DNA from: an uncultured Prevotellaceae bacterium
Lineage (GTDB): Bacteria; Bacteroidota; Bacteroidia; Bacteroidales; Bacteroidaceae
Assembly: GCA_902776195.1 (NCBI GenBank)
Contig: CACYPF010000001.1
Span: 223,578-287,577 of the forward strand
DNA: 64,000 nt
Direction: 5' to 3'
The position numbers and the translations under genes were made by a program. The notes under the pieces are model-generated. The model ran no database searches. It was not told where the DNA came from and saw nothing but the letters and a program-made list of their open reading frames with translations. Positions within the stretch are counted from its first letter, which is position 1, and each line of letters begins with the position of its first letter. Shown piece by piece: positions 41,160 to 59,748 of the stretch.

Positions 41160-42692
41160 TTACTTGAAGAGAGCGTCGACAATCTCCTGTTCGTACCACT
41201 CATCATCATCGCGGTTGTAGAGACCCATCCACCAGAGACCAGTCATGTTATACTCTGTGAACTTCTGTTTCAGATAGGTAGCATACTTCACACGCTCTGT
41301 CATACTCTTATCCTCGTCGATAGCACCAAACTCACCGAAGATGAAGGGGATACCAAGAGATGTACAACGCTTCTGGATGCGTGCGAATACCCTGTCAATC
41401 TCTGCCTTACAGTCATCATCGAAAATCTTGATGTTGTAGTCAAACGTGGTACCATCCTGATTCTTACCCGAATTGTTGTTACAGAAGTTGTAAGGATCAT
41501 AAGAGTGGATAGTCAGGTAGATATGGTTCTGTACCACATCCTGCGGAGCCTGGAACGCCTCAAGGGCAGCATCACTCGTACCCGTAGCGGCATATGTGGT
41601 GACAGCGAGGTTACGATACTGGTTGTTGCCACCAGTAGCACGTACAACGTTGACGAAGTCCTGCTGCAGTTTGTTGATAGCCTCATAAGCCTGGTCGGTA
41701 GCCGAAGAAGGAGCCGTCCATGAATAAGAAGCATTCAGGATCTCGTTAAACGACTCGAAGATAAGTTTCTCGTCATAGTCCTTGAAACGCTCGGCAATCT
41801 GCTTCCATATCTTCTGATAGAGAATGGTATTCTCTGGATAAGCATCCATATCGGCAGTCAGCCAGCACTGTTTGTCGGTACGTCCCTCGGCACGGGCACC
41901 TGTATCGTGCATCACATTGATGATACAGTAGCAGTTAGCTTTCAGCACGTAGTTGACAACCTCCTCAACACGAGCCATCCACTCCTCGTTGATGTTACCC
42001 TCCTCGTCGATATGCGGGAACCATGTCACAGGTACACGGATGATGTTGAAGCCCTTGCCTGCAATCTCGTTAATGATCTCCTGTGTGGTGACAGGCTGTC
42101 CCCAACACGTCTCATAAGTCTTCCAGTCACCGGGACCAGAAGGATGGAACCATGACTGAGAGGGGTCGTGGTTAGACTCCAAGGTATTACCCAGGTTGTA
42201 ACCCATCTTGATGTTAGACACCATATCCCATACACTCTCAATGGGGTCGTCAGAACTGCCACGGCCTGCCTGGTTGATGGTCAGTGTGGCAACGAGACTA
42301 CCTGTGGTGAAGGTGAGGATGGTAGAACGCTCTTCACCCTCGTTGTAATCAACCTTCAGTTTCACATAAGCATTCAGGTTAGTGGCATCCTCCTCATTGA
42401 CAGCCCATCCATAGCCCTCATGCGGAGTGATATGTACCCAAGTAGTGTCAGCATCAGGCATCGCTACCTGCCAGGCACCATCGGTATCGATGGAAATCAT
42501 ATAGGAAGTCAGCTCACCCATTGACACATTCAGTTCGGAGACCTCTGCCCCGTCGTGGGACAGATTAAGTACCGTACCAGCACCAGTCTTTCCGAAGCGG
42601 CCTTTGTTTCCGTTATCGCTGTCGCTGCAGCCCTGGAATCCCAGAGCTGCTGCGGCAAGCAACATAACGGTTAAAATATTCTTTATTTTCAT
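41160..42692 (-). CDS. BACON-GH5 endo-beta-glucanase/mannanase, surface lipoprotein
   Basis: 510 residues; lipobox before Cys22 (GFQGCSDSD), and the Asp/Ser-rich stretch after it fits surface export. Residues ~40-143 form a BACON-type beta domain (FTTGSLVATLTINQAG at its end), a spacer or glycan-binding module in Bacteroidetes. The GH5 barrel follows: GYNLGNTLES, FNIIRVPVTWFPHI, acid/base Glu317 in FESFNEILNAS, and nucleophile Glu454 in IFGEFGAID. The NLGNTL...GFNxIRVPVTW pattern is that of subfamily GH5_4, active on glucan, xyloglucan or glucomannan chains. Fourth gene of the susC block, 22 nt after the glycan-binding protein gene, and terminated at 41110-41138. Confidence 0.9.
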   Translation of the reverse strand: MKIKNILTVMLLAAAALGFQGCSDSDNGNKGRFGKTGAGTVLNLSHDGAEVSELNVSMGELTSYMISIDTDGAWQVAMPDADTTWVHITPHEGYGWAVNEEDATNLNAYVKLKVDYNEGEERSTILTFTTGSLVATLTINQAGRGSSDDPIESVWDMVSNIKMGYNLGNTLESNHDPSQSWFHPSGPGDWKTYETCWGQPVTTQEIINEIAGKGFNIIRVPVTWFPHIDEEGNINEEWMARVEEVVNYVLKANCYCIINVMHDTGARAEGRTDKQCWLTADMDAYPENTILYQKIWKQIAERFKDYDEKLIFESFNEILNASYSWTAPSSATDQAYEAINKLQQDFVNVVRATGGNNQYRNLAVTTYAATGTSDAALEAFQAPQDVVQNHIYLTIHSYDPYNFCNNNSGKNQDGTTFDYNIKIFDDDCKAEIDRVFARIQKRCTSLGIPFIFGEFGAIDEDKSMTERVKYATYLKQKFTEYNMTGLWWMGLYNRDDDEWYEQEIVDALFK

Positions 42693-42714
42693 AAGATATT
42701 GATTCTTTTGATGA

Positions 42715-44355
42715 TTACTTAGACGGAATATAGATCACACGAGCGTTGTCGAACTTGACATTGATCTTACCAGAAGGTGTTCCCTGGTTGAGGGACTGAA
42801 TGCGGAACTGGTTCAGACCAGTTGCCTTGATCTCCGCATAAGTCTTGCCCCAATAGCAGTCGAACGAGCTTAATGGCAGCACGTGGCGATACCACCGGCC
42901 TACGGGAGCCTCATTATTGATATCGGCAAGAACAGGACGTGCGAACGATGGTATCTGATTGTCGTAGTCTGCCCATGCGAAGCCGTTGTCATACTGGTTC
43001 TCTTTATCTCCGATAGGCTGGAACATATAGCGGACATAACCTGTGAAGGCGCCATTGTTATAGTCAGAGCCGTCGTTGTATACATTGATAGCGAAGTACA
43101 CCTCGTCCGCTGTTGCGGTATCAGGGATATTGTCTGAGAGTGGGAATGAGTTACCGTTCCAGTCCTTACGGAAGTAAACCATCGTACCCCACCACTGAGT
43201 ACCCTCTGACGGGATGTTCCAGTATGCATAGACACCATCGGCATCACCACCGTCAATGAACTGGGCATCTGGTCCCCAGCCATTATTGGTAGCATCGATG
43301 AAGTTTCCAGCATCATCCTTATTAAAGGTGGTCAGGATAGTTGAGTAGTCATAGAAGCGGTCGACAGAAACGGTACCACCAGGCGTGGTCACTGTCAGTT
43401 TAGCCTCGCTGCCAGCAGATGGTTTCTTAGCAAACGGAACCGTAATCTGAGTCTGTTCCTCGTTCACCTCAAACTCATCCTCAGTCAGGGTGACATCACC
43501 ATACTTGACGCTCTCCACCTGTACAAACTCAGTACCCTTGATAATCAGGTCCTCACCAATCTGCGGCATATCAGAAGAGATGCTGGTGATAGTAGGCTGA
43601 CCAGGTACCTTATAATAAGCGATATAGGTTGTACCTGCGGCACACTCCAGAACGATGACACCCGACTGATAGGGAACCTCTGGCATGGCAAACTTCAAGA
43701 TGGAAGTGGTCACATACGAGTTATTGGAGGCAAGATGATGATCCATCAGTACCGTCTCAATATTGCTGATAGCAACATGGTTACCACCAATCTCCTTACT
43801 CTCCGACTCAGCCAGTTCCTCAACGGTCACATCAGAGAAATAAGCATCCTCAATGTCCACCAGGTTCAGACCGTGCAGGATGATCTCATCACCAGTCACA
43901 CGGGGATATTCCGCCTGGATACGCTGCAACTGCGGACCGGGTGCCGTCACCTTAAACTCATAGGTAGCTACGCCACCGCGGGTCTCTACCCGGATCTCGT
44001 CAGGAACATCTTCGAAAGCGGAAAGCTTAAAGCCTTTCTCCTCTGTAGGAATAGAGACGATGATGCTATGATCAGTATTCATCGTGGTATTGAAGGTCAG
44101 TTCCTGATTATTGATGAACACCTTCAGGGCACCACCGAGGTTCTTACCCTCAATGGCTATCATAGTGCCGGGACCAGCCTTGGTGTAATATTCATCATAA
44201 CTGTAATTGAGTGTGTCAGAACTTAAGATCTTGACACCCGTGATCTCCGGTTGTCCGCCTGAGCTATTGCTATCGCTACAAGCCATGAAGCTGAACGATA
44301 TCACTCCCATCAGGAAGAGCACCAGGAGACTCTTGCTGTTTATTTTGTACTTCAT
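42715..44355 (-). CDS. IPT/TIG-domain surface glycan-binding lipoprotein
   Basis: 546 residues from the ATG at 44355 (MKYKINSKSLLVLFLMG); an ATG 11 codons upstream is less likely. The signal peptide ends in FMACSDSNSS, a lipobox with an acidic/serine export tail. Three IPT/TIG immunoglobulin-like repeats follow (PGTMIAIEGKNLGG, GDEIILHGLNLVD, GEDLIIKGTEF). The C-terminal ~200-residue beta-sandwich is rich in Trp/Tyr (GTQWWGTMVYFRKDW, VGRWYRHVLPLSSF), as expected for glycan binding. This is the architecture of SusE-position binding proteins. It lies between susD and the GH5 gene and should capture mannan at the surface. Confidence 0.87.
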   Translation of the reverse strand: MKYKINSKSLLVLFLMGVISFSFMACSDSNSSGGQPEITGVKILSSDTLNYSYDEYYTKAGPGTMIAIEGKNLGGALKVFINNQELTFNTTMNTDHSIIVSIPTEEKGFKLSAFEDVPDEIRVETRGGVATYEFKVTAPGPQLQRIQAEYPRVTGDEIILHGLNLVDIEDAYFSDVTVEELAESESKEIGGNHVAISNIETVLMDHHLASNNSYVTTSILKFAMPEVPYQSGVIVLECAAGTTYIAYYKVPGQPTITSISSDMPQIGEDLIIKGTEFVQVESVKYGDVTLTEDEFEVNEEQTQITVPFAKKPSAGSEAKLTVTTPGGTVSVDRFYDYSTILTTFNKDDAGNFIDATNNGWGPDAQFIDGGDADGVYAYWNIPSEGTQWWGTMVYFRKDWNGNSFPLSDNIPDTATADEVYFAINVYNDGSDYNNGAFTGYVRYMFQPIGDKENQYDNGFAWADYDNQIPSFARPVLADINNEAPVGRWYRHVLPLSSFDCYWGKTYAEIKATGLNQFRIQSLNQGTPSGKINVKFDNARVIYIPSK

Positions 44356-44395
44356 AAGAAATATCTGTTTAATAATGTTTCTGTACATACTTTAA

Positions 44396-46180
44396 TTATT
44401 CCTCACCAAAGTTGTATGGCTGCGGAGCCTCCTTCAGGTAGTGATTCTGAATCACGTCACTCTCAGGATAAGGCATGAAGACATTAGACTCGTTCAGGGT
44501 AATAGGCTGATAGTCAGCGCCCTTGGCAGTCAGCAATGTCTTACGCATAGCTACATACTCGTCATGCGTGAGTTTCCGCACCACGGTATTGTCATCAATA
44601 CTCGTACGCAGGCAGTCATTCCATAAGCAATATCCCTCCTCGGTGGTGAGATACCAGTTGTTGGTACCAGGGAAGACACCACGGTAGCTGAGAGTACCGT
44701 CTTCGTTCTTCAGCACACACCCCTCACGCATCTCCCAAGCACGATACTGCTGGTTGTTGAAGAAATCGAGCATGGTCTGTGGCTTCCAGCGATAATAGGT
44801 AGCCATGTCCCACCAGTTGAAGTACTCCATACAGAACTCGATACGGCGCTCACGGAGGATATCCATGAAGGTGATAGAGCTATAGGGGTCAACCTTAGCA
44901 CGGAGGCGGACAGCATTGAAGGCAGCAAGAGCCTCACCATCAGAAGTAGACTCAGCATTACCCAGGATAGCCTCAGCCTTCATCAGGTAAACATCAGCAA
45001 GACGCTGGATGTATGTGTTCAGTGGAGAAGCCATCTGAGCCAGTCCAGAAGGAGCGACATCCGCCTTGGTTCCAAGAACACCCTTCTTCAACTGCATCCA
45101 GTTATGGGCATAGGTATATCCGCCTTCGGCACCCTTGATATAGCTGTAATGCTCATTAGGTGTGAAGAAAGTAGCATCACGACGGATGGAATCCGCAGGA
45201 TCCTCGTTATACAGGTCTATCATATCCACTGAGGCATGCAGTGAGCCACCCCATACATTCACATCCGTCACCTCAGGGAATGCGAGGTCGGAATAAAGTG
45301 CATTCATGGCACCCCACTCACCAGTGTTAGGATCTGCCCAACGCATGGCAAGGATAGTCTCTGAGTTGTCGTTATGCTGTGCCTTGAAGAGGTCCTCATA
45401 ATTATCCATCAGACTATACTGACCACAGTTGATGACCTCATCGCAAAGTTCTACGACCTCAGCGAGGATAGAGGTGTTACGGTCATGGTCACCTTTAGTG
45501 GCATCATTCCAACCACTCTGTGCCAACAGTGCCTTGGCAAGGGCAGCCTTGGCAGCATACTTGGAAGGATGGAAGTCGGTGCCGGTCTCTGGCAGATACT
45601 CTGCCGCACGACGGAAGTCACGGACGATGAACTTCAGCACGTCAGCCTCCGGATTCAACGGCTGGATAGGATTGTCCACCATCGTCTGGTTATCCTCAAA
45701 CAGGATATTGGCACCCCAACCACGAAGCAGGTAGAAGTATGCCCATCCACGCATCAGGTAACACTCGCCGATGGCAGCATTCTTGGTTGTCTCACTGACA
45801 TCCTCGGAACAATATTTCTCCAAGTTATAGAGGGTGGCATTACTCATGGTCACCACATTATAAAGAGCTGACCAGGCAAGACCCATGTCCTCTGTCAGTG
45901 CCGTTACCTGGAAACGGGCGAACTCAGCACTTACGTAAGGGTTCCATGCGTCATTGGCACGATAAGAGCCCATACCCACAAGCGCACGACGGTTAAAGTC
46001 AAACCATGCACGGTTAAAGAGCGGCTCCGTTCCTTTCCTGACGGCTGCATCACTGCTATAGAATGTCTCAGCGGTGTAATTGCCCGTCGGTTTCTTGTCA
46101 AGGAAATCCTTACCGCAACTGGTCAGCATGGTAGAACCGCCGATCAGTGCACACATTATATATATTATATTCTTTTTCAT
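44396..46180 (-). CDS. susD: SusD/RagB-family glycan-binding lipoprotein
   Basis: 594 residues; lipobox LTSCGKDFLDKKP (Cys22), the usual SusD N-terminus. TPR-like helices include ECYLMRGWAYFYLLRGWG, the conserved RGxAYFxLL helix, and the C-terminal SusD domain shows LAAFNAVRLRAKVDPYS-type helix and DILRERRIEFCMEYFNWWDMATYYRWK. The protein forms the lid over its SusC partner and binds oligosaccharide at the outer surface. Located 17 nt after susC, as usual. Confidence 0.95.
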   Translation of the reverse strand: MKKNIIYIMCALIGGSTMLTSCGKDFLDKKPTGNYTAETFYSSDAAVRKGTEPLFNRAWFDFNRRALVGMGSYRANDAWNPYVSAEFARFQVTALTEDMGLAWSALYNVVTMSNATLYNLEKYCSEDVSETTKNAAIGECYLMRGWAYFYLLRGWGANILFEDNQTMVDNPIQPLNPEADVLKFIVRDFRRAAEYLPETGTDFHPSKYAAKAALAKALLAQSGWNDATKGDHDRNTSILAEVVELCDEVINCGQYSLMDNYEDLFKAQHNDNSETILAMRWADPNTGEWGAMNALYSDLAFPEVTDVNVWGGSLHASVDMIDLYNEDPADSIRRDATFFTPNEHYSYIKGAEGGYTYAHNWMQLKKGVLGTKADVAPSGLAQMASPLNTYIQRLADVYLMKAEAILGNAESTSDGEALAAFNAVRLRAKVDPYSSITFMDILRERRIEFCMEYFNWWDMATYYRWKPQTMLDFFNNQQYRAWEMREGCVLKNEDGTLSYRGVFPGTNNWYLTTEEGYCLWNDCLRTSIDDNTVVRKLTHDEYVAMRKTLLTAKGADYQPITLNESNVFMPYPESDVIQNHYLKEAPQPYNFGEE

Positions 46181-46197
46181 AGCGTTTTCTTCAATAT

Positions 46198-49100
46198 TTA
46201 GAATTTAACCTTCAGACCGAATGTATAGATGCGCTGAGAAGGATAACGGTAGTTATCAAGTCCCTGCAGAATCACACTCTGTCCCTGAGCACCGATTTCA
46301 GGATCGTAACCGTCATAACCACTGATGGTGAAGAGGTTCTGGATATTACCATATATCTGAACCCAGTCAAGTTTCAAAGGAGCCAGCCACTTCTTGGGAA
46401 GATTCCAAGCCAGTGACAAAGACTTCATGCGGAGGTAAGATCCATTCTCCACGAAACGGTCGCTGACACGGTTGTTGTCGTTCATGCTGGTACCTGCGGC
46501 ACTGATACGCTGTACACTTGCCGTGGATGCGTTAGACACATAGACATTCGTGATGTCGTTAGCAGAACCTTCCGGGTTATACAAACTAACACGGGCATAG
46601 TTGGCAACATCACTCATCTTGTTACCATAACCCTGCGTGTTGGTGTGCTCCATACGTACAATATTATAAATATCACCGCCTACACTTCCGTTAAGGAAGA
46701 AGCTCAGTTCGAAGTCACGCCATGTAATGGTATTGTTCAAACCAAAGGTGAAATCTGGATTAGGATCACCAATATAGGTTCTATCTGCTGATGTTATCTT
46801 TCCATCGCCATTGATGTCTTCAAAAATGTAGTCACCAACCCATATCCTGTTCTGTGCTATTTCATACATAGCACCGTTCTCACCTTCCTCAGCAGGACGA
46901 GCCACTGGGACGCGAGCACCAGTAGCATCAAGTAAGAACTCACCTTTTGCATTTTTCTGATAAAAGTCATCCTCGCAGGTAAACATACCGATAACCTTGT
47001 ATCCGTAGAAACGACCTACAGGACCTCCTACTTCTGATAACGTATAAGTATTGGTGCCTATCGAACCAGCAATCGTCGAACCATCGCTATTCAAACGGGT
47101 CAGTTTATTGCGGTTGATAGAGAGTGTAGCACCTGTACGCCACTGCCAGTCTTTATTAGAGATATTCACCGTATTCAGGGTGAACTCAACACCGGTATTA
47201 CGGATAGCACCGCTGTTCACCCAAGGAGCCGACATACCCATCCAGTCGTTATTGATAACGTATGAGGGGAGGGATGCCTGCATCAACAGGTTGTCAGTAT
47301 TCTTGTAATACCAGTCAACAATAAACTCAATACGGTTGTTCAGGAAAGAAAGGTCAAGACCAATGTTCCATGCCTTTGTACTTTCCCACTTCAAGTTAGC
47401 GTTGGGGAAATTACCAGGATAGTAACCGGTACCCCATGCGGTAGCAGTGTTAGCCATGGTAGCACCATAAGCATAAGAACCTGAACTCTGGTTACCCACA
47501 TGACCCCATCCGAGACGAAGTTTCATGTTGCTGAGCCATGAAGATGTTTTCTGCATGAAAGGCTCATTGCTGATACGCCAGGCAAGCGCAGCAGAGGGGA
47601 ACCAACCCCAACGGTTATTCTTACCAAATGAGGAAGAACCGTCGGTACGAAGTGTTGCCGTGAACAAGTAGCGGTCCAGCAGGTTATAGTTCAAACGTCC
47701 GAAGTAAGACTCAATACCCCACTCCGTTCCGTCATCACCATTATTGGTTGATGTGGAAGAGTCACCCACGTTCAGAGAGTGGATAGCATCAGAGATATAC
47801 CCTTTACGGGTACCGCTCAAAGACTCCCAGTTACCCCACTGTGACTCATGACCTAACATGACAGAGAAGTGGTGGTCGCTCTTGATGTCGAAGTTATAAG
47901 TAGCATACTGCTTGAATGTGCCATACTTGCTCATAGACTTCGTACGGGTAGAGTTTGACTCCACCATGATACTTCCATAGGTATACTCCGGTACGAAATA
48001 GTAGGTATTATTCCAACCTCTGCTTCCACCGTACTCTACACGGACATTCAAGCCCTTCAATGGAGTCAGACTGGCAAAGACATTATAGTCCAGCTGATAG
48101 TTGTCTGTCTTGTTCTCCTTCATATTCGCCTCGAAGATCGGGTTGCTGTAATAGGTAGCAAAATCATTCACCTCGGGAACGCCATACGATCCGTCTGGAT
48201 TACGGGGAGCCACATCAGGGAACTGGCTCAACGCGGTAGAGATCACATTACTCTCTGTGAACGTGATCACCTGCTTGGTGTTCGCAAAAGCGACATTCGT
48301 ACCAATCTGCAACCAGTCGGTGATATTGGTATCAAAATTACCACGGAAGCTGGCACGTTTGAAGCCTGAACCGATACCGACACCATCCTGATCCAGGTAA
48401 CCACCGGAGATAGAATAGTGCATATCCTTATTACCACCACTGACATTTACGGTATGGTTATGCATGAAGGCTGTCTGGAACAGCTCACTCTGCCAGTCAG
48501 TACCATTGGTCAGCAACTCAGGATGCTTATAGTCCTCACGGGTACCCCATCCCTGGATGGCAGCACGTACATTATAGAAATCCGCATACTGAGGGAGATT
48601 CATCACACTCAGTTTCTTGGGAATACTCTGCCAACCGAAATAGCCCTCATACTGAATCTTTGCCTTTCCTTCCTCACCACGCTTGGTAGTAATCAGAACG
48701 ACACCGTTAGAAGCACGGGAACCGTAGATTGCCGTAGCAGAGGCATCCTTCAACACCTCAATAGAAGTAATATCGGAAGGGTTGATGCTGCTCAACACTG
48801 AGCTGTTGCCACTGGTATTACCACTTACCTGGATACCGTCAATGACATACAGAGGCTCGTTACCACTCAGAGAGTTGATACCACGGATCTGTACGGAGAT
48901 ACCACCACCAGGAGCACCAGAGTTCTGGGTCACCTGTACACCGGCGATACGACCCTGCATGGCCTGCTCAAGAGAAGTGTTGACACCCTGCTTGATTGCC
49001 TTCTCGTCAATACTGGATACAGAACCGGTCAGGTCGGAGCGCTTCATTGTACCGTAACCAACGACAACGACTTGCTCCAGCATGTTGACATCCTCGGCAA

Positions 49101-49413
49101 TCTGGATGTCTAACTTGCCTGCTCCAGACACTTTGACCGATTTGGTCTGATAACCTACATACGAGACTTCGATGGTAGCACCCTGCCGCACCGACATCTT
49201 GTAATTACCCATGGCATCGGTAATAGTACCACCTGTGGAACCCTTTACCTTCACCGTAGCACCAATGACCTCCTCACCAGTGTTGGCGTCGGTCACTGTT
49301 CCTGAAATATTCACATTCTGTGCCAAGGCACCTAATGGGAACATCATCAAGAAGAGAACTATGCATCTGATTTTCGCAAATACACAGTTTGCAGATTTGA
49401 ATGTTTTGTTCAT
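46198..49413 (-). CDS. susC: SusC/RagA-family TonB-dependent transporter
   Basis: 1071 residues. After the signal peptide (to ALAQ) comes a carboxypeptidase-regulatory-like beta domain (NISGTVTDANTGEEVIGATVKVKG), then the TonB box region (EQVVVVGYGTMKRSDLTGS), the plug with SLEQAMQGRIAGVQVTQNSGAPG and IRGINSLSGNEPLYVIDGI, and a 22-strand barrel ending in a Phe (YTFGLKVKF). It imports glycan fragments with SusD. First gene of the block; a -7 box (TATTTTTG, complement of 49489-49496) lies about 75 nt upstream with no matching -33, as expected for an activator-dependent promoter. Confidence 0.96.
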   Translation of the reverse strand: MNKTFKSANCVFAKIRCIVLFLMMFPLGALAQNVNISGTVTDANTGEEVIGATVKVKGSTGGTITDAMGNYKMSVRQGATIEVSYVGYQTKSVKVSGAGKLDIQIAEDVNMLEQVVVVGYGTMKRSDLTGSVSSIDEKAIKQGVNTSLEQAMQGRIAGVQVTQNSGAPGGGISVQIRGINSLSGNEPLYVIDGIQVSGNTSGNSSVLSSINPSDITSIEVLKDASATAIYGSRASNGVVLITTKRGEEGKAKIQYEGYFGWQSIPKKLSVMNLPQYADFYNVRAAIQGWGTREDYKHPELLTNGTDWQSELFQTAFMHNHTVNVSGGNKDMHYSISGGYLDQDGVGIGSGFKRASFRGNFDTNITDWLQIGTNVAFANTKQVITFTESNVISTALSQFPDVAPRNPDGSYGVPEVNDFATYYSNPIFEANMKENKTDNYQLDYNVFASLTPLKGLNVRVEYGGSRGWNNTYYFVPEYTYGSIMVESNSTRTKSMSKYGTFKQYATYNFDIKSDHHFSVMLGHESQWGNWESLSGTRKGYISDAIHSLNVGDSSTSTNNGDDGTEWGIESYFGRLNYNLLDRYLFTATLRTDGSSSFGKNNRWGWFPSAALAWRISNEPFMQKTSSWLSNMKLRLGWGHVGNQSSGSYAYGATMANTATAWGTGYYPGNFPNANLKWESTKAWNIGLDLSFLNNRIEFIVDWYYKNTDNLLMQASLPSYVINNDWMGMSAPWVNSGAIRNTGVEFTLNTVNISNKDWQWRTGATLSINRNKLTRLNSDGSTIAGSIGTNTYTLSEVGGPVGRFYGYKVIGMFTCEDDFYQKNAKGEFLLDATGARVPVARPAEEGENGAMYEIAQNRIWVGDYIFEDINGDGKITSADRTYIGDPNPDFTFGLNNTITWRDFELSFFLNGSVGGDIYNIVRMEHTNTQGYGNKMSDVANYARVSLYNPEGSANDITNVYVSNASTASVQRISAAGTSMNDNNRVSDRFVENGSYLRMKSLSLAWNLPKKWLAPLKLDWVQIYGNIQNLFTISGYDGYDPEIGAQGQSVILQGLDNYRYPSQRIYTFGLKVKF

Positions 49414-49592: not shown

Positions 49593-50489
49593 CTACTGGT
49601 GATATTTCACCAACCCCTCCATCGGAGCGGACAGAATGGTACCGAGGAAAAATCCCTCTTGTTCTGCCGCCTCCCTCAACTCATCTTGGAAATGGAAGGC
49701 GATGCTTCCTACCGCATGGACAGGCAGGTCACGACGCTGGTACTGTATGAGATTATGTTGGAAGAACGTGCGGAAATTGGAAACGACCAAGTCCCGTAAA
49801 GGCTCATAGTCAAGATGCTCATGGATAAATGAAGCCGTAGAGGCAAGGAAACGGTTGGCAAGCGGTTCCCTATATACCTTATTTATAATAGAGGGGAGTG
49901 TCATCTTGGTCTCTGCCAGATAGGTGTCACGGATACTGGCAAACTGAGTGTTCTTAAAGATAGCATTCATGAATAACCGACCTAATACCGCACCACTACC
50001 CTCATCACCTAAGACATAACCAAGTGCGGGGGTGTTTTGTGCGATTTTCTCACCATCGAACAAACAAGAGTTAGCACCTGTGCCAAGTATACAGGCGATA
50101 CCCTCATCATGACCGCACAGTGCTCGTGCTGCCGCCATTAAGTCGCTATACACCTCCACTGTTTTTGGAGAAAACACCTCATCGAGCATCTGTTTCATCA
50201 TCGGCACATGGGCTGGCGTGCAACCACTGCCATAGAAAAACACTTGGATGTTCGACAATAGAGGACTTTCAAGAATTTTCGAATTAACCAGCTGGGCACG
50301 TGAGAAGGTAGAGAGCTGTGGCATCAGTTCCTGCGCCAGTATCTGCCGGATCTCAGCGGGCGACTGATGAACAGGAGTGATTCCCTGCGTTTTAAAAGAC
50401 ACCACTACCACATCCTCATTACGTAAACCTGTATCATGAAGGAGCGTCCAGTCCGTTTTGGTACTTCCGCTGTCAGCAATCAATTTCAT
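49593..50489 (-). CDS. BadF/BadG/BcrA/BcrD-type ATPase, probable amino-sugar kinase
   Basis: 298 residues. ASKHA-fold motifs are LIADSGSTKTDW (phosphate 1), CILGTGANSCLFDG (phosphate 2), LGDEGSGAVLGRLFM and VHAVGSIAFHF (adenosine). The combination is that of the BadF family branch related to N-acetylglucosamine kinases, and GDEGSG is the sugar-kinase variant. The substrate is not decided by sequence; glucosamine derivatives or hexoses are likely. It is monocistronic, divergent from the MscS-type channel and downstream-facing toward susC, with a -7 box (TATCTTTG, complement of 50516-50523) about 27 nt upstream. Confidence 0.85.
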   Translation of the reverse strand: MKLIADSGSTKTDWTLLHDTGLRNEDVVVVSFKTQGITPVHQSPAEIRQILAQELMPQLSTFSRAQLVNSKILESPLLSNIQVFFYGSGCTPAHVPMMKQMLDEVFSPKTVEVYSDLMAAARALCGHDEGIACILGTGANSCLFDGEKIAQNTPALGYVLGDEGSGAVLGRLFMNAIFKNTQFASIRDTYLAETKMTLPSIINKVYREPLANRFLASTASFIHEHLDYEPLRDLVVSNFRTFFQHNLIQYQRRDLPVHAVGSIAFHFQDELREAAEQEGFFLGTILSAPMEGLVKYHQ

Positions 50490-52984: not shown

Positions 52985-52992
52985 TATCTTTG
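52985..52992 (+). promoter_or_regulatory. -7 box of the kdsA operon
   Basis: TATCTTTG matches TAnnTTTG. Transcription should begin near 52997-52999, just before the ATG at 53000, so translation is either near-leaderless from 53000 or starts at the in-frame ATG at 53015. Confidence 0.6.
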
Positions 52993-52999
52993 CAAGGAA

Positions 53000-53776
53000 A
53001 TGGCGATAACGAATATGGGAAATACGATTATAGCAGGTCCCTGTGTTATAGAATCCGCCGAGCTGCTGGATACTGTTGCGGCGAGACTGGTGGACATCAA
53101 CAAGAAACTGGGGACTGATATTATATTCAAAGCTTCGTTTGACAAAGCGAACCGCACCTCTATCAGCTCCTTTCGGGGACCTGGCATTGATAAAGGACTG
53201 CAAATGCTTTGCGATGTCAAAGAAAAGCACGGTCTTCGCCTGCTCACAGATATACATGAGGCATGGCAGGCTGGTCCTGTCGGACAAGTAGTGGATGTTA
53301 TCCAGATTCCAGCTTTTCTATGCAGACAGACTGACCTCTTGATTGCCGCTGCACGGACAGGGAAAACCGTCAATATCAAGAAAGCGCAATTCCTCAGTGG
53401 ACGGGACATGCGCTATCCGGTGGAGAAAGCCCGTGATGCAGGAGCCAAAGACATCTGGTTGACAGAGAGAGGGAACATGATGGGATATAATAATCTGGTA
53501 GTGGATTTCCGCAACATCCCTGACATGCTGGAGATTGTTCCGACTGTTATTATGGACTGTACTCATAGTGTACAGCGTCCCGGAGGAGCAGGAGGAAAGA
53601 CAGGAGGGGACAGACGCTACGTGCCACAGATGGCTATAGCGGCTAAAGCCTTTGGAGCCACAGGGTGGTTCTTTGAGGTACACCCCACCCCCGACAAGGG
53701 ACTAAGCGATGCCGCAAACATGCTGGAACTGGACAAGTTGGAATCACTTGTCGCAAAACTGATAGACAATGACTGA
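53000..53776 (+). CDS. kdsA: KdsA, 3-deoxy-D-manno-octulosonate 8-phosphate synthase
   Basis: 258 residues from the first ATG; an ATG five codons later (MGNTIIAGPC) is also plausible. It joins phosphoenolpyruvate and arabinose-5-phosphate to give KDO-8-phosphate for the lipopolysaccharide core. It is the metal-dependent type: Cys15, His189, Glu226 and Asp237 (GPCVIES, DCTHSVQ, FFEVHP, PDKGLSDA) have exactly the spacing (174, 37, 11) of the Aquifex enzyme's metal ligands. Enzymes of the E. coli type have Asn instead of the Cys. Its last 8 nt overlap kdsD, which supplies its substrate. Confidence 0.97.
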   Translation: MAITNMGNTIIAGPCVIESAELLDTVAARLVDINKKLGTDIIFKASFDKANRTSISSFRGPGIDKGLQMLCDVKEKHGLRLLTDIHEAWQAGPVGQVVDVIQIPAFLCRQTDLLIAAARTGKTVNIKKAQFLSGRDMRYPVEKARDAGAKDIWLTERGNMMGYNNLVVDFRNIPDMLEIVPTVIMDCTHSVQRPGGAGGKTGGDRRYVPQMAIAAKAFGATGWFFEVHPTPDKGLSDAANMLELDKLESLVAKLIDND

Positions 53777-54716
53777 TAAGGAGAACGCCATACAATGTAT
53801 CAAAGACGAGGCTCAGGCGGTACTTGACCTGATTGCCAAGATAGACGACAACTTTGACAAAGCGGTCGACTTAATTATGCATTGCAATGGCAAGGTGATT
53901 GTCACGGGTGTCGGGAAGAGTGGACATATCGGTGCAAAAATCGCAGCGACATTAGCATCAACGGGAACACCTTCCTTCTTCATCAACCCCCTGGACGTAT
54001 TCCACGGCGACCTTGGCGTGATGTCTAAAGGAGACGTCGTACTTGCCATCTCCAACTCAGGACAGACAGACGAGCTTCTGCGTTTCATCCCCATGGTGCT
54101 GCATATGGAAATCCCTATTATCGCCATGAGCGGTAACCCGCAGTCGCTATTGGCAAAATACTCCACCTGTCATCTGAATGTGAGTGTGGAGAAAGAGGCA
54201 TGTCCTCTGAACCTGGCTCCAACCAGCAGTACGACAGCAACACTGGTAATGGGGGATGCACTGGCTGTTGCACTGATGAACAAACGCCATTTCCAGCCAC
54301 AGGACTTTGCTCAGTTCCATCCTGGCGGTGAGTTAGGCAAACGACTGCTGACGACCGCACAAGACGTGATGATTACGGAGAATCTGCCAATCCTGACCCC
54401 AGAGATGCATCTGGGCGAGGCTATCATCCTTGTCAGCAAAGGTAAACTGGGACTGGGCGTAGCCATTGCCAATGACACCATTGCCGGCATGATCACGGAC
54501 GGTGACATCCGCAGGGCGATGGAGAAATGGAAGGCAGAGTTCTTTGACCGCACAGTGAGTGACGTCATGACCCTATCCCCCAAAACGGTCTCTCCGCAGA
54601 CCAAGATCTCCGAGATACAGAAAATCATGAATAAATACAAAATACATAATGTGCTTGTCACTGACGCCAATAACAGACTGTTAGGTATCGTAGACCGCTA
54701 TGCATGTATTTTATAA
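53769..54716 (+). CDS. kdsD: KdsD, arabinose-5-phosphate isomerase
   Basis: 315 residues, close to the family length. The SIS isomerase domain (about 30-175) shows GKVIVTGVGKSGHIGAKIAATLASTGTPSFF, HGDLGVMSKGDVVLAISNSGQTDEL and the conserved CPLNLAPTSSTTATLVMGDALAVALM. Two CBS domains follow (VMITENLPILTPEM..., VMTLSPKTVSPQT...). It converts ribulose-5-phosphate to arabinose-5-phosphate, the KdsA substrate, so the pair is a two-step KDO module. Overlaps kdsA by 8 nt; the hybrid-regulator gene begins 18 nt later. Confidence 0.96.
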   Translation: MTDKENAIQCIKDEAQAVLDLIAKIDDNFDKAVDLIMHCNGKVIVTGVGKSGHIGAKIAATLASTGTPSFFINPLDVFHGDLGVMSKGDVVLAISNSGQTDELLRFIPMVLHMEIPIIAMSGNPQSLLAKYSTCHLNVSVEKEACPLNLAPTSSTTATLVMGDALAVALMNKRHFQPQDFAQFHPGGELGKRLLTTAQDVMITENLPILTPEMHLGEAIILVSKGKLGLGVAIANDTIAGMITDGDIRRAMEKWKAEFFDRTVSDVMTLSPKTVSPQTKISEIQKIMNKYKIHNVLVTDANNRLLGIVDRYACIL

Positions 54717-54734: not shown

Positions 54735-57700
54735 ATGAAAGGACTGAAGAAAATACTATTAGTACTGATGCTTGCCCTGCCTCTTGCAGTAGCAGGCGTT
54801 TATCTGTTCAAGACATTAGACATTAAAGACGGTCTAACCAGTAGTCAGATTAACTGTATCCTGAAAGATGGTCGAGGATATATGTGGTTTGGAACACCTG
54901 CCGGTCTTTATCGGTATGACGGTTACACTTTCAGGAATTTCCAAAGTAACTCCAAAGACGGGTCTTCCCTACCCGACAGTTATATCCGTAGTATACAGGA
55001 AGCTTTAGATGGCAATCTTTGGATTCTCACTTCTGCCGGGTATTGCGTCTATCATCCTCAAACAGAGACATTTGAGCGTGACATGAAACAGATTTATGCC
55101 CGAATGGGAATTGAAGGACTGCCAAATGTCGTTTACTTCGACCGACATAAGAATTTATGGGCTGCTATTCCCAACAAAGGAGTCGTAGCCTATAACATGC
55201 AGCAACAACTACTTTATGAGTTTGGATACACAGACGACAGTCATGGAGTTCCACAAGGAAACATCTGTTCTATCGGAGAATGCCGTGACGGTGCCATTAT
55301 AGTCTATGAGGACGGTCGGATAGTATGCTGTGACATCATGCACCAGCAACATACGGTATGGGCTTCCGATCATGTCGCCCAACAACACTTGAGAAAGAGT
55401 TCCTCTTTAAAAGTTTTTGCAGATCAGTCAGACAACATCTGGCTCTATGGACAAGGAACTCTCATGCAGTATAATAAAAGCACCAACGTATGGGACACCT
55501 CTATAGGAAACAGCATAGGGCTGACCAATGTGTCGGCTGACCATAGTGTGAACGGCATGGCAAGTGACCAGAATGGAAACATCTGGATAGGAACGGATCG
55601 TATGGGACTTCTCAGAATGGACATGAACACCCATGCAATAGAATCTGTACAGCCGCATGATGGAAGAAACAATCAGTTGACACAAGAGACCATTGGTGTC
55701 CAAAGTGTATATGTAGACGATACCGACTTACTATGGATTGGAACGGAGAAGTCCGGTGTAGCATTCTATGGAGACAACATATACAAATTCCAATCCTCTT
55801 TCAATGGTGACATCACCGCCATTGCACAAGACATCGACGGAAATATCTGGTATGGGACAAGTGACAAAGGTGTCATCGGATATGAAGGACCGTTGGCAAG
55901 TCAGAAAGTCTCATGTATGGAAACCACTAACGAAGGAAGTCTGTGGGTGGGGTCTCGCCAGAATGGTTTGACCCGCATCAAGGATGGAACCACACATATC
56001 TTCTCAGCATCAAGAGATAGTATGAGGACCCTTATTGACGACCATATCAATGCACTGGCAAAGGATAACAGCGGTAATCTATGGATTGCCACTAATGGAG
56101 GATTACAGGTATATAATCCCAAAATGAACACGTTCTCCTCTTATACACGTGAGAACGGCATGCTGAATACCAACAATATCACCAGCCTATTTTATGGGAA
56201 AAACAACATACTGCTTATTGGAACTTCAGAAGGAATGATCTTACTGAACCTATCCAACAGGGAGAAGACGCTCTTGACCGGTAATTCTACCAATCTCAAG
56301 ACGTTCACCAACAACTACATCACCCAAGTGTTTGAAGACTCCAGAGGTTTGATATGGGTTGGTACGCGTGAAGGTCTGAATGTATACAACTCTGAAACAG
56401 ACTCGTTGAATTATATTACTGAGAAAAACGGACTTTGCAACAATTCCATATGCGGTATTACAGAAGACAAAAGCAGTAATATCTGGGTGACGACCAGTAA
56501 TGGTATCAGCCGTATCGTAGTTCAAAGAAACAGAGAAGAAGGGTCTTTCGGTTATGGTCTCTATAATTACGACACGAAAGACGGACTGCAAAGTAATGAG
56601 TTCAACACCGGCTCTATTCTTACCAAATCAGACGGTTCTGTTATTTTTGGAGGTCTATATGGTGTAAACTGGGTTCGCCAAGCCGCAAAAGAAGACCAGA
56701 ACAGCCTTCCTCGTGTCATGTTGACGCAATTGTTCATCGGTGAAGAGGAAATTCTTGTAGGACATGAATACGACAATAATGTGATTCTCCCGCAAGCCCT
56801 CAATGAGAGTAACAAAATCAGTTTGAAGAATAAACAAAACACCTTCACCATCAAGTTCGCCGCAGGAAACTACAACCAAGGTGAACGACTACAATTCATG
56901 TATTGGATGGAAGGTCGTGACCACGACTGGAGGAACGGCGATGCCTTGCTCCACGGAGTGAAGTTCCGCGATTTAAGCAGTGGAACCTACACCTTGCACG
57001 TGAAAGCTGTCAGCGCTGATGGTGCGGTAAGTAATCAAGAGCGTAAATTGGAGATTTACATTGAGCGCCCATGGTGGCTGACTTGGTGGATGCTTTCCGT
57101 TTATGTGCTTATTGCAATAGTAATTTTGATTATTTGGCGTTATGGCTATAAGAAACTCAAGAATTACATGACCAGAAAGCGTACCGTCGTTGATGAATTG
57201 AAACGTCAACGTGAGGAAATCAAGCTAACCAGTGACGAGCTACGACAGCCAATGGCGCGAATGACTACGATTATAGGGAATCTTGCCGAGAAAGAGAATG
57301 ACTTAGAAGGCCGGGAGCAGTTGAACTCCCTACACTTCCAGATGCTCCAAGTCATCACTCGCATTTCCGAAATGCAAACTATTCTGGAGAATCCAGAAGC
57401 TAAAGCAGAATCTACTGCAAAAGACCGTCTGGAGCTGAATGACCAAGGAGAAGTCAGTCTCCCCTCTATTGCTACATCTGAGCTTACAGCTACCATTCAG
57501 CCTCTGCGCTTAGATAAGAAGACGCAAAAATTCAATGTCGTCTTCATAGACAGTAATAAGGACTTTAACAATTTCATGAATGCCCACTTGCGCGAAGTTT
57601 ATGATTTCCACATATACGATGATATCAGGCTTGCCATTCCTGACATTGAGTCTATGAAAGCCGACCTGGTTATTTGTAAACAGGACATGAAACACATGAC

Positions 57701-58487
57701 AGGCAGTGAGCTCTGTAACCAACTCAAATCCAACCCACGCACACAGCAAATCAAGTTTGTTTTGATGACTGACACTGTGCTGACCCAGGAGATGATGAGC
57801 GACATGAACATCACCCTTGCCGCAGACGATTATATTGCCAAGCCATTCAATGTCCAAGAAGCTGTTATGCGCTTCAACAAACTGATGGGATTAGGTCCTG
57901 TCGAAATGGAACAGAATACCATCGAAGGACGTGAGACGCGTATGCTGGAAGGACGTAATGCCAGTATGACAACTGCGACAATGGTCTATGAGGACATCCC
58001 ACATGCTACCGATACGGCCAAGTCATCTGTTGAAGAAACAAAAGATGTCTCACAACAAACTGTTACAGAAAGTACTCCTGAGAAACAAGGTGGAGTCTTA
58101 GCCCAGCAGTTCTATGGTGAGGACGAGACCATTGGCAACTACTCAATGAGCAACCTGATGGACCGTCAGCTGATGAGGAACGTGGAGCAATATGTACTCC
58201 AAAATATGAGCAGAGGACAGATCAGTCTGGAAGAAATGGCATCTGCTATGGGTATGGGACGTGTTCCTTTCTTCCATAAGATCAGGAATATCACGGCCAA
58301 GACACCAGCTGAAGTCGTCCGTGACATCCGCTTAAAACACGCATGTGTGCTCTTAACCAAGACAAACATCAATATGAGTGAGCTTGCCATCAATATTGGA
58401 TTCTCTACTGCGGAGAATTTCATTAATATCTTCAAAGACAAATATGGCATGACACCACTTGAATACCGCTTAAAGAACAAGCAATAA
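54735..58487 (+). CDS. Degenerate hybrid two-component-like regulator (HTCS without kinase)
   Basis: 1250 residues, shorter than usual HTCS (about 1300-1450). Order: membrane segment (6-24); two-component propeller repeats (about 30-690: GYMWFGTPAGLYRYDG, NIWIGTDRMGLLRMD, LIWVGTREGLNVYN); Y_Y_Y domain (about 700-775); transmembrane helix (about 780-805); DHp-like helices (820-885); receiver-like domain (933-1045); AraC helix-turn-helix (about 1150-1250). The H-box reads SDELRQP, with Asp834 where SHELRTP has the phospho-His. No ATP-binding domain exists between the DHp helices and the receiver. The receiver's phospho-Asp site reads DLVICKQDM, with Lys982 at the aspartate position, though the conserved Lys1036 (AKPF) remains. 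It therefore cannot signal by phosphotransfer but retains sensing and DNA binding. Encoded between kdsD and a cardiolipin synthase-like gene (18-nt and 1-nt gaps). Confidence 0.85.
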   Translation: MKGLKKILLVLMLALPLAVAGVYLFKTLDIKDGLTSSQINCILKDGRGYMWFGTPAGLYRYDGYTFRNFQSNSKDGSSLPDSYIRSIQEALDGNLWILTSAGYCVYHPQTETFERDMKQIYARMGIEGLPNVVYFDRHKNLWAAIPNKGVVAYNMQQQLLYEFGYTDDSHGVPQGNICSIGECRDGAIIVYEDGRIVCCDIMHQQHTVWASDHVAQQHLRKSSSLKVFADQSDNIWLYGQGTLMQYNKSTNVWDTSIGNSIGLTNVSADHSVNGMASDQNGNIWIGTDRMGLLRMDMNTHAIESVQPHDGRNNQLTQETIGVQSVYVDDTDLLWIGTEKSGVAFYGDNIYKFQSSFNGDITAIAQDIDGNIWYGTSDKGVIGYEGPLASQKVSCMETTNEGSLWVGSRQNGLTRIKDGTTHIFSASRDSMRTLIDDHINALAKDNSGNLWIATNGGLQVYNPKMNTFSSYTRENGMLNTNNITSLFYGKNNILLIGTSEGMILLNLSNREKTLLTGNSTNLKTFTNNYITQVFEDSRGLIWVGTREGLNVYNSETDSLNYITEKNGLCNNSICGITEDKSSNIWVTTSNGISRIVVQRNREEGSFGYGLYNYDTKDGLQSNEFNTGSILTKSDGSVIFGGLYGVNWVRQAAKEDQNSLPRVMLTQLFIGEEEILVGHEYDNNVILPQALNESNKISLKNKQNTFTIKFAAGNYNQGERLQFMYWMEGRDHDWRNGDALLHGVKFRDLSSGTYTLHVKAVSADGAVSNQERKLEIYIERPWWLTWWMLSVYVLIAIVILIIWRYGYKKLKNYMTRKRTVVDELKRQREEIKLTSDELRQPMARMTTIIGNLAEKENDLEGREQLNSLHFQMLQVITRISEMQTILENPEAKAESTAKDRLELNDQGEVSLPSIATSELTATIQPLRLDKKTQKFNVVFIDSNKDFNNFMNAHLREVYDFHIYDDIRLAIPDIESMKADLVICKQDMKHMTGSELCNQLKSNPRTQQIKFVLMTDTVLTQEMMSDMNITLAADDYIAKPFNVQEAVMRFNKLMGLGPVEMEQNTIEGRETRMLEGRNASMTTATMVYEDIPHATDTAKSSVEETKDVSQQTVTESTPEKQGGVLAQQFYGEDETIGNYSMSNLMDRQLMRNVEQYVLQNMSRGQISLEEMASAMGMGRVPFFHKIRNITAKTPAEVVRDIRLKHACVLLTKTNINMSELAINIGFSTAENFINIFKDKYGMTPLEYRLKNKQ

Positions 58488-58488
58488 T

Positions 58489-59748
58489 ATGATGCGAATT
58501 CTTTTATCCGCCTTATTGGTTCTCTTAACACTATCAGCGAGCGCTCAGACGAGTGACTCGCTGATTGTCCAAACACTACGCTCTAAGAAGATTCGGTTCT
58601 CTGACAACAACAGTGTAACGCTTCTGATGTCGGGACAAGAGAAGTTCGATGACATGTTCAAGGCTATCCGGCAGGCTAAGAGCAGTGTACACCTGGAGTA
58701 TTTCAATTTCCGCAATGACTCTATTGCTTCCTTGCTCTTCGATATTCTCCGAGAGAAACGGAAGGAAGGGGTGGAGATCAGAGCGATGTTTGACGGTTTC
58801 GGCAATGACTCCAATAACCAGCCACTCAAGAAACATCACCTGAAGGCATTGCGTGACGACAGTATCAATATTGTGGAATATGACCCGATCCGCTTTCCTT
58901 GGATCAATAAGATATTCGGACGTGACCACCGTAAGATAGTAGTCATTGACGGACAGATAGCCTATACTGGTGGGATGAATGTCGCCGACTATTACATCAA
59001 AGGAACTCCGCAAGTTGGGGAATGGCGTGATATGCACTGCCGCATAGAGGGAGATGCCGTCAATGAGTTACAGAAGATTTTCATTAGGATATGGAACCGG
59101 GTGACCGGTGAGAATGTGCATGGCATCAAGTACTACCGCGGCGGTACCATGACCCGCTTTGAGGGATTGAAACCCGATACGACATCCACCGCAGGGAGAA
59201 AGATGGTAGGCATTATTACCCGTGAGCCTTATCTGACCCCAAAGATCATGCGTGAGTTTTACATTAGCGCGATCAACGAGGCTCAAGACTCCATCAAGAT
59301 CATCAACCCCTACTTCACCCTGATACCCAAAGTCACAAGAGCACTGACCAGGGCTATCAAACGAGGGGTAAAGGTGGAAATCATGCAATCGGCAAAGAGT
59401 GACATACCCCTTACACCGGACTGCGCCTATTATCAGGCACACAAACTGATGAAACGGGGAGCCATCGTATGGATGTATCAGCCCGGTTTCCACCATTCTA
59501 AGATCATGATGGTGGACGGACGTTTTTGTACGATAGGCAGTACCAATCTAGATGCCCGCAGCTTGCGGTGTGACTTCGAGCAAAACGCTGTCATCATTGA
59601 CAAGGAGACCACTAAGGAGTTAGACGACATGTTTGACCGGGACACCAAGAAGAGTTTCCTGTTAACGGAGGAATCATGGGATCAGTTCCGCACCCCGTGG
59701 CAGAAGTTCCGTGGATGGTTCGCCCACCTTTTAGCCCCATTCTTGTAA
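58489..59748 (+). CDS. cls: Secreted phospholipase D-superfamily protein, cardiolipin synthase-like
   Basis: 419 residues. Two HKD motifs: His147-x-Lys149...Asp154 (DHRKIVVIDG, then TGGMN) and His336-x-Lys338...Asp343 (HHSKIMMVDG, then GSTNLD), which together form one active site. Cardiolipin synthases usually start with two membrane helices; here there is instead a short cleavable-looking signal (MMRILLSALLVLLTLSASAQ), so the enzyme should be periplasmic or outer-membrane attached. It joins two phosphatidylglycerols or hydrolyses phospholipid. Begins one base after the regulator gene and ends 4 nt before the acyltransferase, so all are probably co-transcribed. Confidence 0.85.
   Translation: MMRILLSALLVLLTLSASAQTSDSLIVQTLRSKKIRFSDNNSVTLLMSGQEKFDDMFKAIRQAKSSVHLEYFNFRNDSIASLLFDILREKRKEGVEIRAMFDGFGNDSNNQPLKKHHLKALRDDSINIVEYDPIRFPWINKIFGRDHRKIVVIDGQIAYTGGMNVADYYIKGTPQVGEWRDMHCRIEGDAVNELQKIFIRIWNRVTGENVHGIKYYRGGTMTRFEGLKPDTTSTAGRKMVGIITREPYLTPKIMREFYISAINEAQDSIKIINPYFTLIPKVTRALTRAIKRGVKVEIMQSAKSDIPLTPDCAYYQAHKLMKRGAIVWMYQPGFHHSKIMMVDGRFCTIGSTNLDARSLRCDFEQNAVIIDKETTKELDDMFDRDTKKSFLLTEESWDQFRTPWQKFRGWFAHLLAPFL

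Follow-up and report, generated by a model that had tools for sequence, protein, structure and literature searches.

The gene at positions 54735-58487 (+) of the window, a stretch of 64,000 nucleotides of contig CACYPF010000001.1 from an uncultured Prevotellaceae bacterium (assembly GCA_902776195.1), encodes a protein that follows the plan of a hybrid two-component system (HTCS) regulator and has lost its phosphotransfer chemistry. The loss of the phospho-accepting His, the ATPase domain and the phospho-accepting Asp extends throughout the orthologous loci examined, in which the protein is under purifying selection, the gene keeps a fixed synteny and the spacing between membrane helix and stem is preserved. 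It is rather probable that an HTCS has evolved here into a one-component AraC-type transcription factor, anchored in the membrane, which signals through a change of conformation and has a link to an envelope operon. A first-pass annotation had described an HTCS layout with Asp834, an absent ATPase domain and Lys982 in an intact frame of 1250 codons; the layout was confirmed by Pfam and by alignment with ordinary HTCSs, and the frame is indeed uninterrupted. Not contained in that annotation are the location of the gene in a housekeeping envelope operon, the changes at Asp1013 and Lys1007, and the existence of other kinase-less propeller-AraC proteins.

Loss of the phosphotransfer residues and the kinase core

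In the 1250-residue protein, Pfam matches were obtained for Reg_prop (eight stretches), Y_Y_Y (residues 712-776), Response_reg (936-1043) and HTH_18 (1168-1245), and no match to HisKA or HATPase_c was found at E values up to 1. The sensor and output plan of an HTCS is retained, with a propeller/Y_Y_Y periplasmic sensor, a membrane helix (recognised by eye) and a C-terminal AraC domain. The closest solved relative of the sensor by sequence is 4a2l, which we take to be BT4663 of Bacteroides, and the solved HTCS chain 12aw was also matched. The motif SDELRQP aligns at SHELRTP of ordinary HTCSs, which places Asp834 at the phospho-His position, while CKQDM aligns at SDVMMP and places Lys982 at the phospho-Asp position. 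Only about 45 residues separate the DHp-like helices from the receiver, at the place that is occupied by the ATPase domain in ordinary HTCSs.

The same replacements are found in the relatives, as the first-pass annotation had proposed to check: Asp or Glu at 834, Lys982 and the missing ATPase domain are kept through the family. A set of 101 orthologous loci, from which the window copy was left out, comprises 95 distinct sequences; their His site is occupied by Asp (77) or Glu (18), and their Asp site by Lys (94) or Arg (one). The addition of 20 loci, the deepest branches included, and of the window copy gave 122 loci and 115 distinct sequences, in which position 834 reads D94/E19/N1/G1 (acidic in 113/115) and position 982 reads K114/R1. 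The codons at 982 vary synonymously (AAG in 76, AAA in 38 and CGT in one of the 115). Among 130 distinct C-termini the His site is D105/E23/N1/G1 and the Asp site K129/R1; the sets of 122, 115 and 130 all include the gene of the window. Non-orthologous propeller proteins were left out of the family counts (L023-L030, of which L024-L030 are ordinary HTCSs and L023 is part of a kinase-less protein). A frame break was noted in one relative, L211 (genome G188), a family copy split into two frames by a natural break or a sequencing error, which was counted by its longer piece.

Since the stretch matching residues 840-935 is only 95-104 residues long in 122/122 loci, an ATPase domain cannot fit in these copies. 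A Pfam scan of 40 diverse members matched Response_reg and HTH_18 in 40/40 and HATPase_c in 0/40. HisKA was matched weakly in 6/40 (best E 0.002), the protein of the window being itself unmatched, and because of these weak matches the DHp-like stem appears to resemble a decayed HisKA domain. The claim that every phosphotransfer element had been lost holds for the phospho-accepting residues and the kinase, but not for the receiver pocket, of which Asp939, Thr1012 and Lys1036 are each kept in 95/95 distinct orthologues.

The dead signalling domains are about as constrained as the live ones. The median ratio of nonsynonymous to synonymous substitution rates (dN/dS) is 0.046 for the propeller, 0.034 for Y_Y_Y, 0.023 for the DHp-like helices, 0.051 for the pseudo-receiver, 0.032 for residues 1051-1085, 0.022 for the AraC domain and 0.200 for the variable linker 1086-1140. 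These values were obtained with a Nei-Gojobori script from pairs 84-97% identical, of which 69-115 of 136 were used per domain and 21 to 67 were excluded for dS outside 0.05-2.5. Together with the family-wide replacements and the fixed synteny, these low ratios establish the gene as a maintained one and not a relic, in agreement with the earlier proposal.

Further changes accompany the loss of catalysis. The residue after the conserved Thr (T+1, position 1013) is D96/E17/N2 in the 115 distinct sequences, and is Ala in 30/32 ordinary receivers (counted by eye); these 32 were chosen for Asp-x-Met-Met-Pro, with one match of L160 in another protein excluded, and give no measure of how often the Asp is lost. 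In most Bacteroides HTCSs the receiver is predicted to use its alpha3-beta4 loop, S/C-H-I-P, to clasp the recognition helix and so keep it away from DNA, S/CH substitutions in one such HTCS lead to phosphorylation-independent DNA binding, and the S/CHIP-DK motif of the interface between receiver and DNA-binding domain (DBD) is described for most, not all, HTCSs (PMC11253607). In the protein of the window the S/CHIP part of this motif is replaced, the loop reading QQIK. Its fourth position, 1007, is K112/R2/M1 in the family, and Pro occupies the equivalent position in 31/32 ordinary Asp-bearing receivers. In 115/115 family sequences the H-box position follows the Pro that precedes the membrane helix at a distance of 55 residues, exactly one heptad (7 residues) below the commonest spacing in 29 H-box proteins (ordinary HTCSs and other Y_Y_Y kinases), where 62 was found in 14, 55 in two and 76 in one, so that class 6 modulo 7, which the family keeps, is common to 17/29; these spacings were located by pattern, which gave none in 3/32 sequences and probably used wrong anchors for the values 93 and 85. 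A conserved linker motif at residues 1061-1082 is diverged in L209, L210, L215 and L216 and absent from the ordinary HTCSs aligned.

Probable signalling without phosphotransfer and the competing explanations

Conformational or oligomeric signalling, similar in concept to that of ToxR and CadC, appears to be the best reading of the sequence. The features described fit a dimeric one-component regulator that is driven mechanically; we infer the dimer, the direction of switching, the class of ligand and the link to the operon. The periplasmic propeller and Y_Y_Y domain would sense an envelope-associated or glycan-like signal, and the resulting change would pass via the membrane helix and the coiled coil behind it to the AraC domains of a dimer; the coiled coil has retained its heptad register relative to the DHp-like helices. 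These helices would form the dimer stem. The receiver would act as a frozen scaffold, and its Lys982, with Asp939 and Asp1013 at its sides, is predicted from the residues to fill the phosphorylation and metal pocket. To judge from published results on Bacteroides HTCSs, Lys in place of Pro in the alpha3-beta4 loop should loosen or rewire the receiver's grip, which in ordinary HTCSs keeps the DBD silent, so that DNA binding would no longer wait for phosphate. Because the gene lies in a kdsA-kpsF-X-cardiolipin-synthase-like operon, the likeliest role would be in envelope homeostasis (3-deoxy-D-manno-octulosonic acid (KDO)/lipopolysaccharide (LPS) and membrane lipid) and not in a polysaccharide utilization locus (PUL).

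Several observations weigh against this reading. Two family members have no acid at position 834 itself (N and G), both of them with Asp at 835, and one member has Leu for Thr1012. The S/CH half of the loop motif varies in ordinary receivers too (SH in 20/32, by eye), and since it varies in both sets only the Pro-to-Lys change is distinctive; even this Lys is shared by one ordinary receiver, L264. On the DBD side the interface residues are mostly kept (D in 113/115; K87/R28, that is K or R in 115/115), which suggests that some contact between receiver and DBD may survive. No DHp-receiver or receiver-HTH coupling above background was seen by mutual information (two of the top 100 pairs vs 7.6 expected, and eight vs 10.8 expected), and the couplings of membrane helix with DHp (nine vs 2.3) and DHp with HTH (ten vs 5.7) were above expectation; with about 98 effective sequences and relatedness not removed, these counts are weak either way. 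The regulatory link to the envelope operon, moreover, is drawn from gene position.

A more specific proposal, which we regard as rather unlikely, is that the acid at 834/835 and Lys982 form a permanent electrostatic latch, leaving the sensor to work the AraC domain mechanically, with a fossilised phosphorelay hard-wired in an LPS/cardiolipin operon. In ordinary systems the His-site and Asp-site positions come into contact during phosphotransfer; here the latch would keep the receiver docked on the stem, in the space once taken by the ATPase domain. Lys982 may pair either with Asp939 and Asp1013, as in the frozen receiver, or with the 834/835 acid of the stem.

It is unlikely that the sensor has become uncoupled, leaving an AraC regulator that is tethered to the membrane and constitutively active, with an output that depends on how much of the protein is made from the kdsA operon. 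The altered inhibitory loop motif and the embedding of the gene in an operon are compatible with this explanation, and expression-level control of constitutively active pseudo-receivers is discussed in PMC12632262. However, the strong purifying selection on the propeller and Y_Y_Y domain would be needless unless the sensor served another purpose.

Signalling through a partner is quite unlikely. In this case the regulator would assemble into heterodimers, either with an ordinary HTCS or with a propeller protein of the same genome that has an ATPase domain as its only kinase part, and would dampen or redirect a real phosphorelay. A search of 60 same-genus genomes with the membrane-to-ATPase part of this ATPase-only protein, which has a HATPase_c and no HisKA match, gave E 2.3e-37 or better in 15/22 genomes carrying the regulator (carriers) and 0/38 non-carriers, the E cut having been chosen after the listing was seen. 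The match reaches the ATPase part in 13 of the 15, and G018 and G054 are covered only before it. Seven non-carriers gave weaker matches in frames of 1230-1398 residues, which were taken as ordinary kinases by length. The carriers are related, though, so their co-occurrence with the ATPase-only protein may be ancestry; no phospho-acceptor His or Asp was seen in either protein, and the DHp-like helices are shortened in comparison with ordinary HTCSs. An obligatory ATPase-only partner was rejected, because it has no match in the fairly complete carriers G034 (93%), G050 (91%) and G052 (99%).

Proteolysis, in which a stimulus would expose the juxtamembrane part to a protease and a soluble pseudo-receiver-AraC piece would act as the regulator, is very improbable. 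The relaxed linker 1086-1140 and the conserved motif 1061-1082 between receiver and AraC domain could be taken in its favour, but the relaxed linker is separated from the membrane by the receiver, and the invariant spacing from membrane to H-box fits the mechanical coupling of the conformational reading better than cleavage. That the copy of this strain decayed recently or lost a piece in assembly has a negligible probability and is refuted by the orthologues: no copy with His and ATPase domain occurs among the 122 loci, all of which have the same architecture, the family profile matches in 157/399 same-genus genomes, dN/dS is low, and the same gap in 122/122 loci rules out a deletion during assembly.

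Relation to known systems and to other kinase-less proteins

The family shares with the Bacteroides HTCSs BT4663 and BT4124 the order of propeller, Y_Y_Y, membrane helix, DHp-like helices, receiver and AraC domain. In contrast to them it has no phospho-His, ATPase domain or phospho-Asp, carries an acidic T+1 residue, a Lys for the Pro of the receiver-DBD loop and an extra conserved linker motif, and sits in an envelope operon. A related case is BT4236 of B. thetaiotaomicron, in which Gln848 replaces the His; Gao et al. 2024 (PMC11253607) read this replacement as a hint that the protein works independently of phosphorylation. Both are HTCS-type proteins with an H-box lacking His; whereas for BT4236 only the changed His and the motif CSIP-EK are mentioned (PMC11253607), the family has also lost the whole kinase core and the receiver Asp.

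According to PMC12632262, the phospho-site is missing from 0.9% of the HisKA domains and 2.0% of the receiver domains sampled, and how pseudo-receivers work is described as still a mystery. In aspartate-less receivers (ALRs), Arg, Lys and His together make up 4% of the substitutions (PMC4395418). The receiver of the family falls within the sequence definition of a pseudo-receiver or ALR, with a PF00072 match (E 2e-9 for the protein of the window) in 40/40 members scanned and Lys982 at the phospho-site, and solved receivers were matched by sequence. As in the ALRs described, the first acidic residue and the pocket Lys are kept and the second acidic position is variable; unlike in ALRs, where basic substitutions are rare, Lys is fixed in the family, and the same membrane protein also contains a pseudo-DHp.

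ToxR and CadC combine a periplasmic sensor, a membrane helix and a cytoplasmic DNA-binding domain with no phosphotransfer, their winged-helix domain being N-terminal to the membrane helix. The family resembles them in concept, being membrane-anchored and devoid of phosphotransfer, and its domain content, a sensor and a DNA-binding domain in one chain, is that of a one-component system. It differs in having, instead of a winged-helix OmpR-type domain, an AraC-type HTH_18 domain, which is C-terminal, with the pseudo-DHp and pseudo-receiver in between. Taken together, the family lacks the catalytic features of an HTCS, has a pseudo-receiver by sequence and most likely works as a one-component regulator. 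Among the best matches in the open-licence literature, judged by titles and abstract openings, no description of this family was recognised.

Other HTCS-like proteins without a complete kinase were observed. The same genome encodes three propeller-Y_Y_Y-AraC proteins without a kinase or receiver match in Pfam (L164:2236-5211, L165:2213-4657 and L166:1726-4218), and two genomes of another family of the order have propeller-Y_Y_Y-membrane helix-AraC proteins of about 958 residues in a gene neighbourhood common to both (L283:8080-10956 and L284:8340-11210), apparently the product of a separate kinase loss. Also in the same genome, L163:3585-6653 (G000:C19) has propeller, Y_Y_Y and HATPase_c matches and none to HisKA, receiver or HTH domains, and its gene lies between those of a LacI-like regulator and a glycosidase-like protein (named by eye). 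Owing to L163-L166, L283 and L284, HTCS parts without a kinase are not unique to the family. L164-L166, L283 and L284 likewise join an HTCS-like sensor to an AraC domain with no kinase, on a one-component plan, but have no receiver match (L164-L166 by Pfam, L283 and L284 by length and sequence), whereas the family keeps both domain shells under selection. What is special here is the retention of both dead phosphorelay domains, with fixed replacements, in a core operon.

With both halves of the phosphorelay dead in one chain, mechanical signalling through HTCS parts becomes testable without a kinase of its own, for which the family offers replacements that are fixed, a wealth of natural variants and a single conserved location of the gene. 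These observations suggest that an envelope operon has taken up HTCS machinery, which usually goes with polysaccharide use, and that HTCS-like regulators lacking a kinase have more than one origin in Bacteroidales. Directly beside the ATPase-only protein there are also propeller-type sensors of about 870 residues (L167:2093-4699 and L168:5019-7634; domains by eye); past the membrane helix they have just a short acidic tail, and no output domain is visible.

Gene neighbourhood and distribution

The features of the regulator and of the presumed operon are collected in the table below. The block TATCTTTG precedes kdsA in 12/13 aligned carriers, the remaining one having TACCTTTG, and resembles the Bacteroidetes -7 box. 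No carrier-specific operator was seen upstream of kdsA, where only the promoter-like block was found, a variant of which occurs in some non-carriers too. The phospholipase D (PLD) family gene is next downstream in 80/80 loci of a set comprising the best 80 of 186 further loci, and kpsF is directly upstream in 77/80, the other three having no sought gene upstream. In 20 further loci the PLD gene follows in 19, the remaining one being at a contig edge, and kpsF precedes in 18; upstream of the regulator in L219 and L220 no kpsF or kdsA match was found. With start codons assigned mechanically, the gap from kpsF to the regulator is -53 to 69 bases in the 77 loci, and that from the regulator to the PLD gene is -4 to 161 bases in the 80 loci, exactly -4 in 28. 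The promoter-like site before kdsA and the short gaps suggest that the kdsA, kpsF, regulator and PLD genes are co-transcribed.

Features of the regulator gene and of its operon in the window, with the basis of each assignment
Feature	Position	Strand	Basis
kdsA, KDO-8-phosphate synthase, first gene of presumed operon	53000..53776	+	NCBIfam NF003543/TIGR01362 over cut-off
Promoter-like TATCTTTG just upstream of kdsA	52985..52992	+	alignment of 13 carriers
kpsF/kdsD-type sugar-phosphate isomerase, directly upstream	53769..54716	+	TIGR00393 over cut-off
Kinase-less HTCS-derived regulator, whole gene, 1250 aa	54735..58487	+	single open frame, orthologues
Hydrophobic N-terminus, residues 5-25, either a signal peptide or the first membrane anchor	54747..54809	+	read from translation
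Periplasmic Reg_prop beta-propeller sensor, residues ~26-690	54810..56804	+	Pfam PF07494, E 2.3e-38
Y_Y_Y domain, residues 712-776	56868..57062	+	Pfam PF07495, E 8.5e-8
Membrane helix, residues ~787-806	57093..57152	+	hydrophobic run by eye; aligns with ordinary HTCSs
DHp-like helices without phospho-His, residues ~826-888	57210..57398	+	alignment, spacing, weak HisKA in 6/40 members
Asp834 codon, at phospho-His position	57234..57236	+	alignment, family counts
Short linker, residues 889-932, at ATP-binding domain position of ordinary HTCSs	57399..57530	+	Pfam, alignment
Pseudo-receiver, residues ~933-1050	57531..57884	+	Pfam PF00072, E 2e-9; 40/40 members
Lys982 codon, at phospho-Asp position	57678..57680	+	alignment, codon counts
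alpha3-beta4 loop QQIK, residues 1004-1007, at S/CHIP motif position	57744..57755	+	motif from PMC11253607
Asp1013 codon, position T+1	57771..57773	+	family and ordinary receiver comparison
Linker motif N.IEG.ETR.LEG.N.SMTTAT, residues 1061-1082, after pseudo-receiver	57915..57980	+	invariant columns of 40-row alignment A1
AraC-type DNA-binding domain, residues 1142-1250	58158..58484	+	Pfam PF12833, E 4.5e-15; match to 12aw
Cardiolipin-synthase-like PLD protein, directly downstream	58489..59748	+	PLDc_2; TIGR04265 281.8 bits, under cut-off 290

In 16/19 non-carrier loci, picked from kpsF matches, kpsF is followed directly by the PLD gene and the regulator is absent; one of the other three has kpsF only, and two have kdsA-kpsF without a PLD match (one of them from another family). 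As non-carriers have kpsF next to the PLD gene, the regulator gene most likely entered, or dropped out of, a housekeeping operon for KDO synthesis and membrane lipid. No orthologue with His and ATPase domain was found at this place in the 19 non-carrier loci.

The window also contains susC-like, susD-like and GH5 genes at 41160-49413, about 5 kb upstream and beyond a divergent gene (49593-50489) that adjoins this cluster and gives a weak N-acetylglucosamine kinase match. A role of the family as a PUL regulator was considered and appears unlikely, a match to the SusC of the window lying beside only 4/80 carrier loci besides the window itself (72/80 have 6 kb of upstream sequence). Just downstream of the PLD gene in one of the 20 further loci, on the opposite strand, L224:11296-15249 encodes a second HTCS-sized propeller protein (22% identity).

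In a first survey of 100 genomes, 60 of the same genus and 40 from other families of the order, a high-scoring orthologue (L001-L022) was found in 22/60 same-genus genomes, including that of the window, and the matches at E 1e-100 in the 40 were to other propeller proteins of 29-35% identity. The hosts of the 80-locus set are labelled Prevotella, Prevotellaceae, Bacteroidales and, once, Xylanibacter ruminicola, the named source often being a ruminant stomach compartment. A family profile of the cytoplasmic part (alignment A1, 40 rows) matched in 157/399 sampled same-genus genomes, including that of the window, with contig-end fragments in G170 and G349. In wider searches, which score the best few candidates per genome, a family-wide sample of 301 genomes from 30 genera gave six matches, all in that same genus, and an order-wide sample of 295 genomes gave 14 genomes with a match at E 1e-25, the whole model being matched only in the genome of the window and the other places listed matching the HTH end only; none of the further genera in these samples gave a full-length match.

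On a kdsA-kpsF-PLD tree of 113 taxa (95 carriers and 18 non-carriers), presence of the gene changes three times by parsimony, which argues for mostly vertical inheritance with a few gains or losses. L285, an ordinary HTCS from another family that was aligned in full, shares 34% identity with the protein over residues 20-880, and its motifs read SHDLRTP and SDVMMP; the family is therefore most likely derived from an ordinary HTCS.

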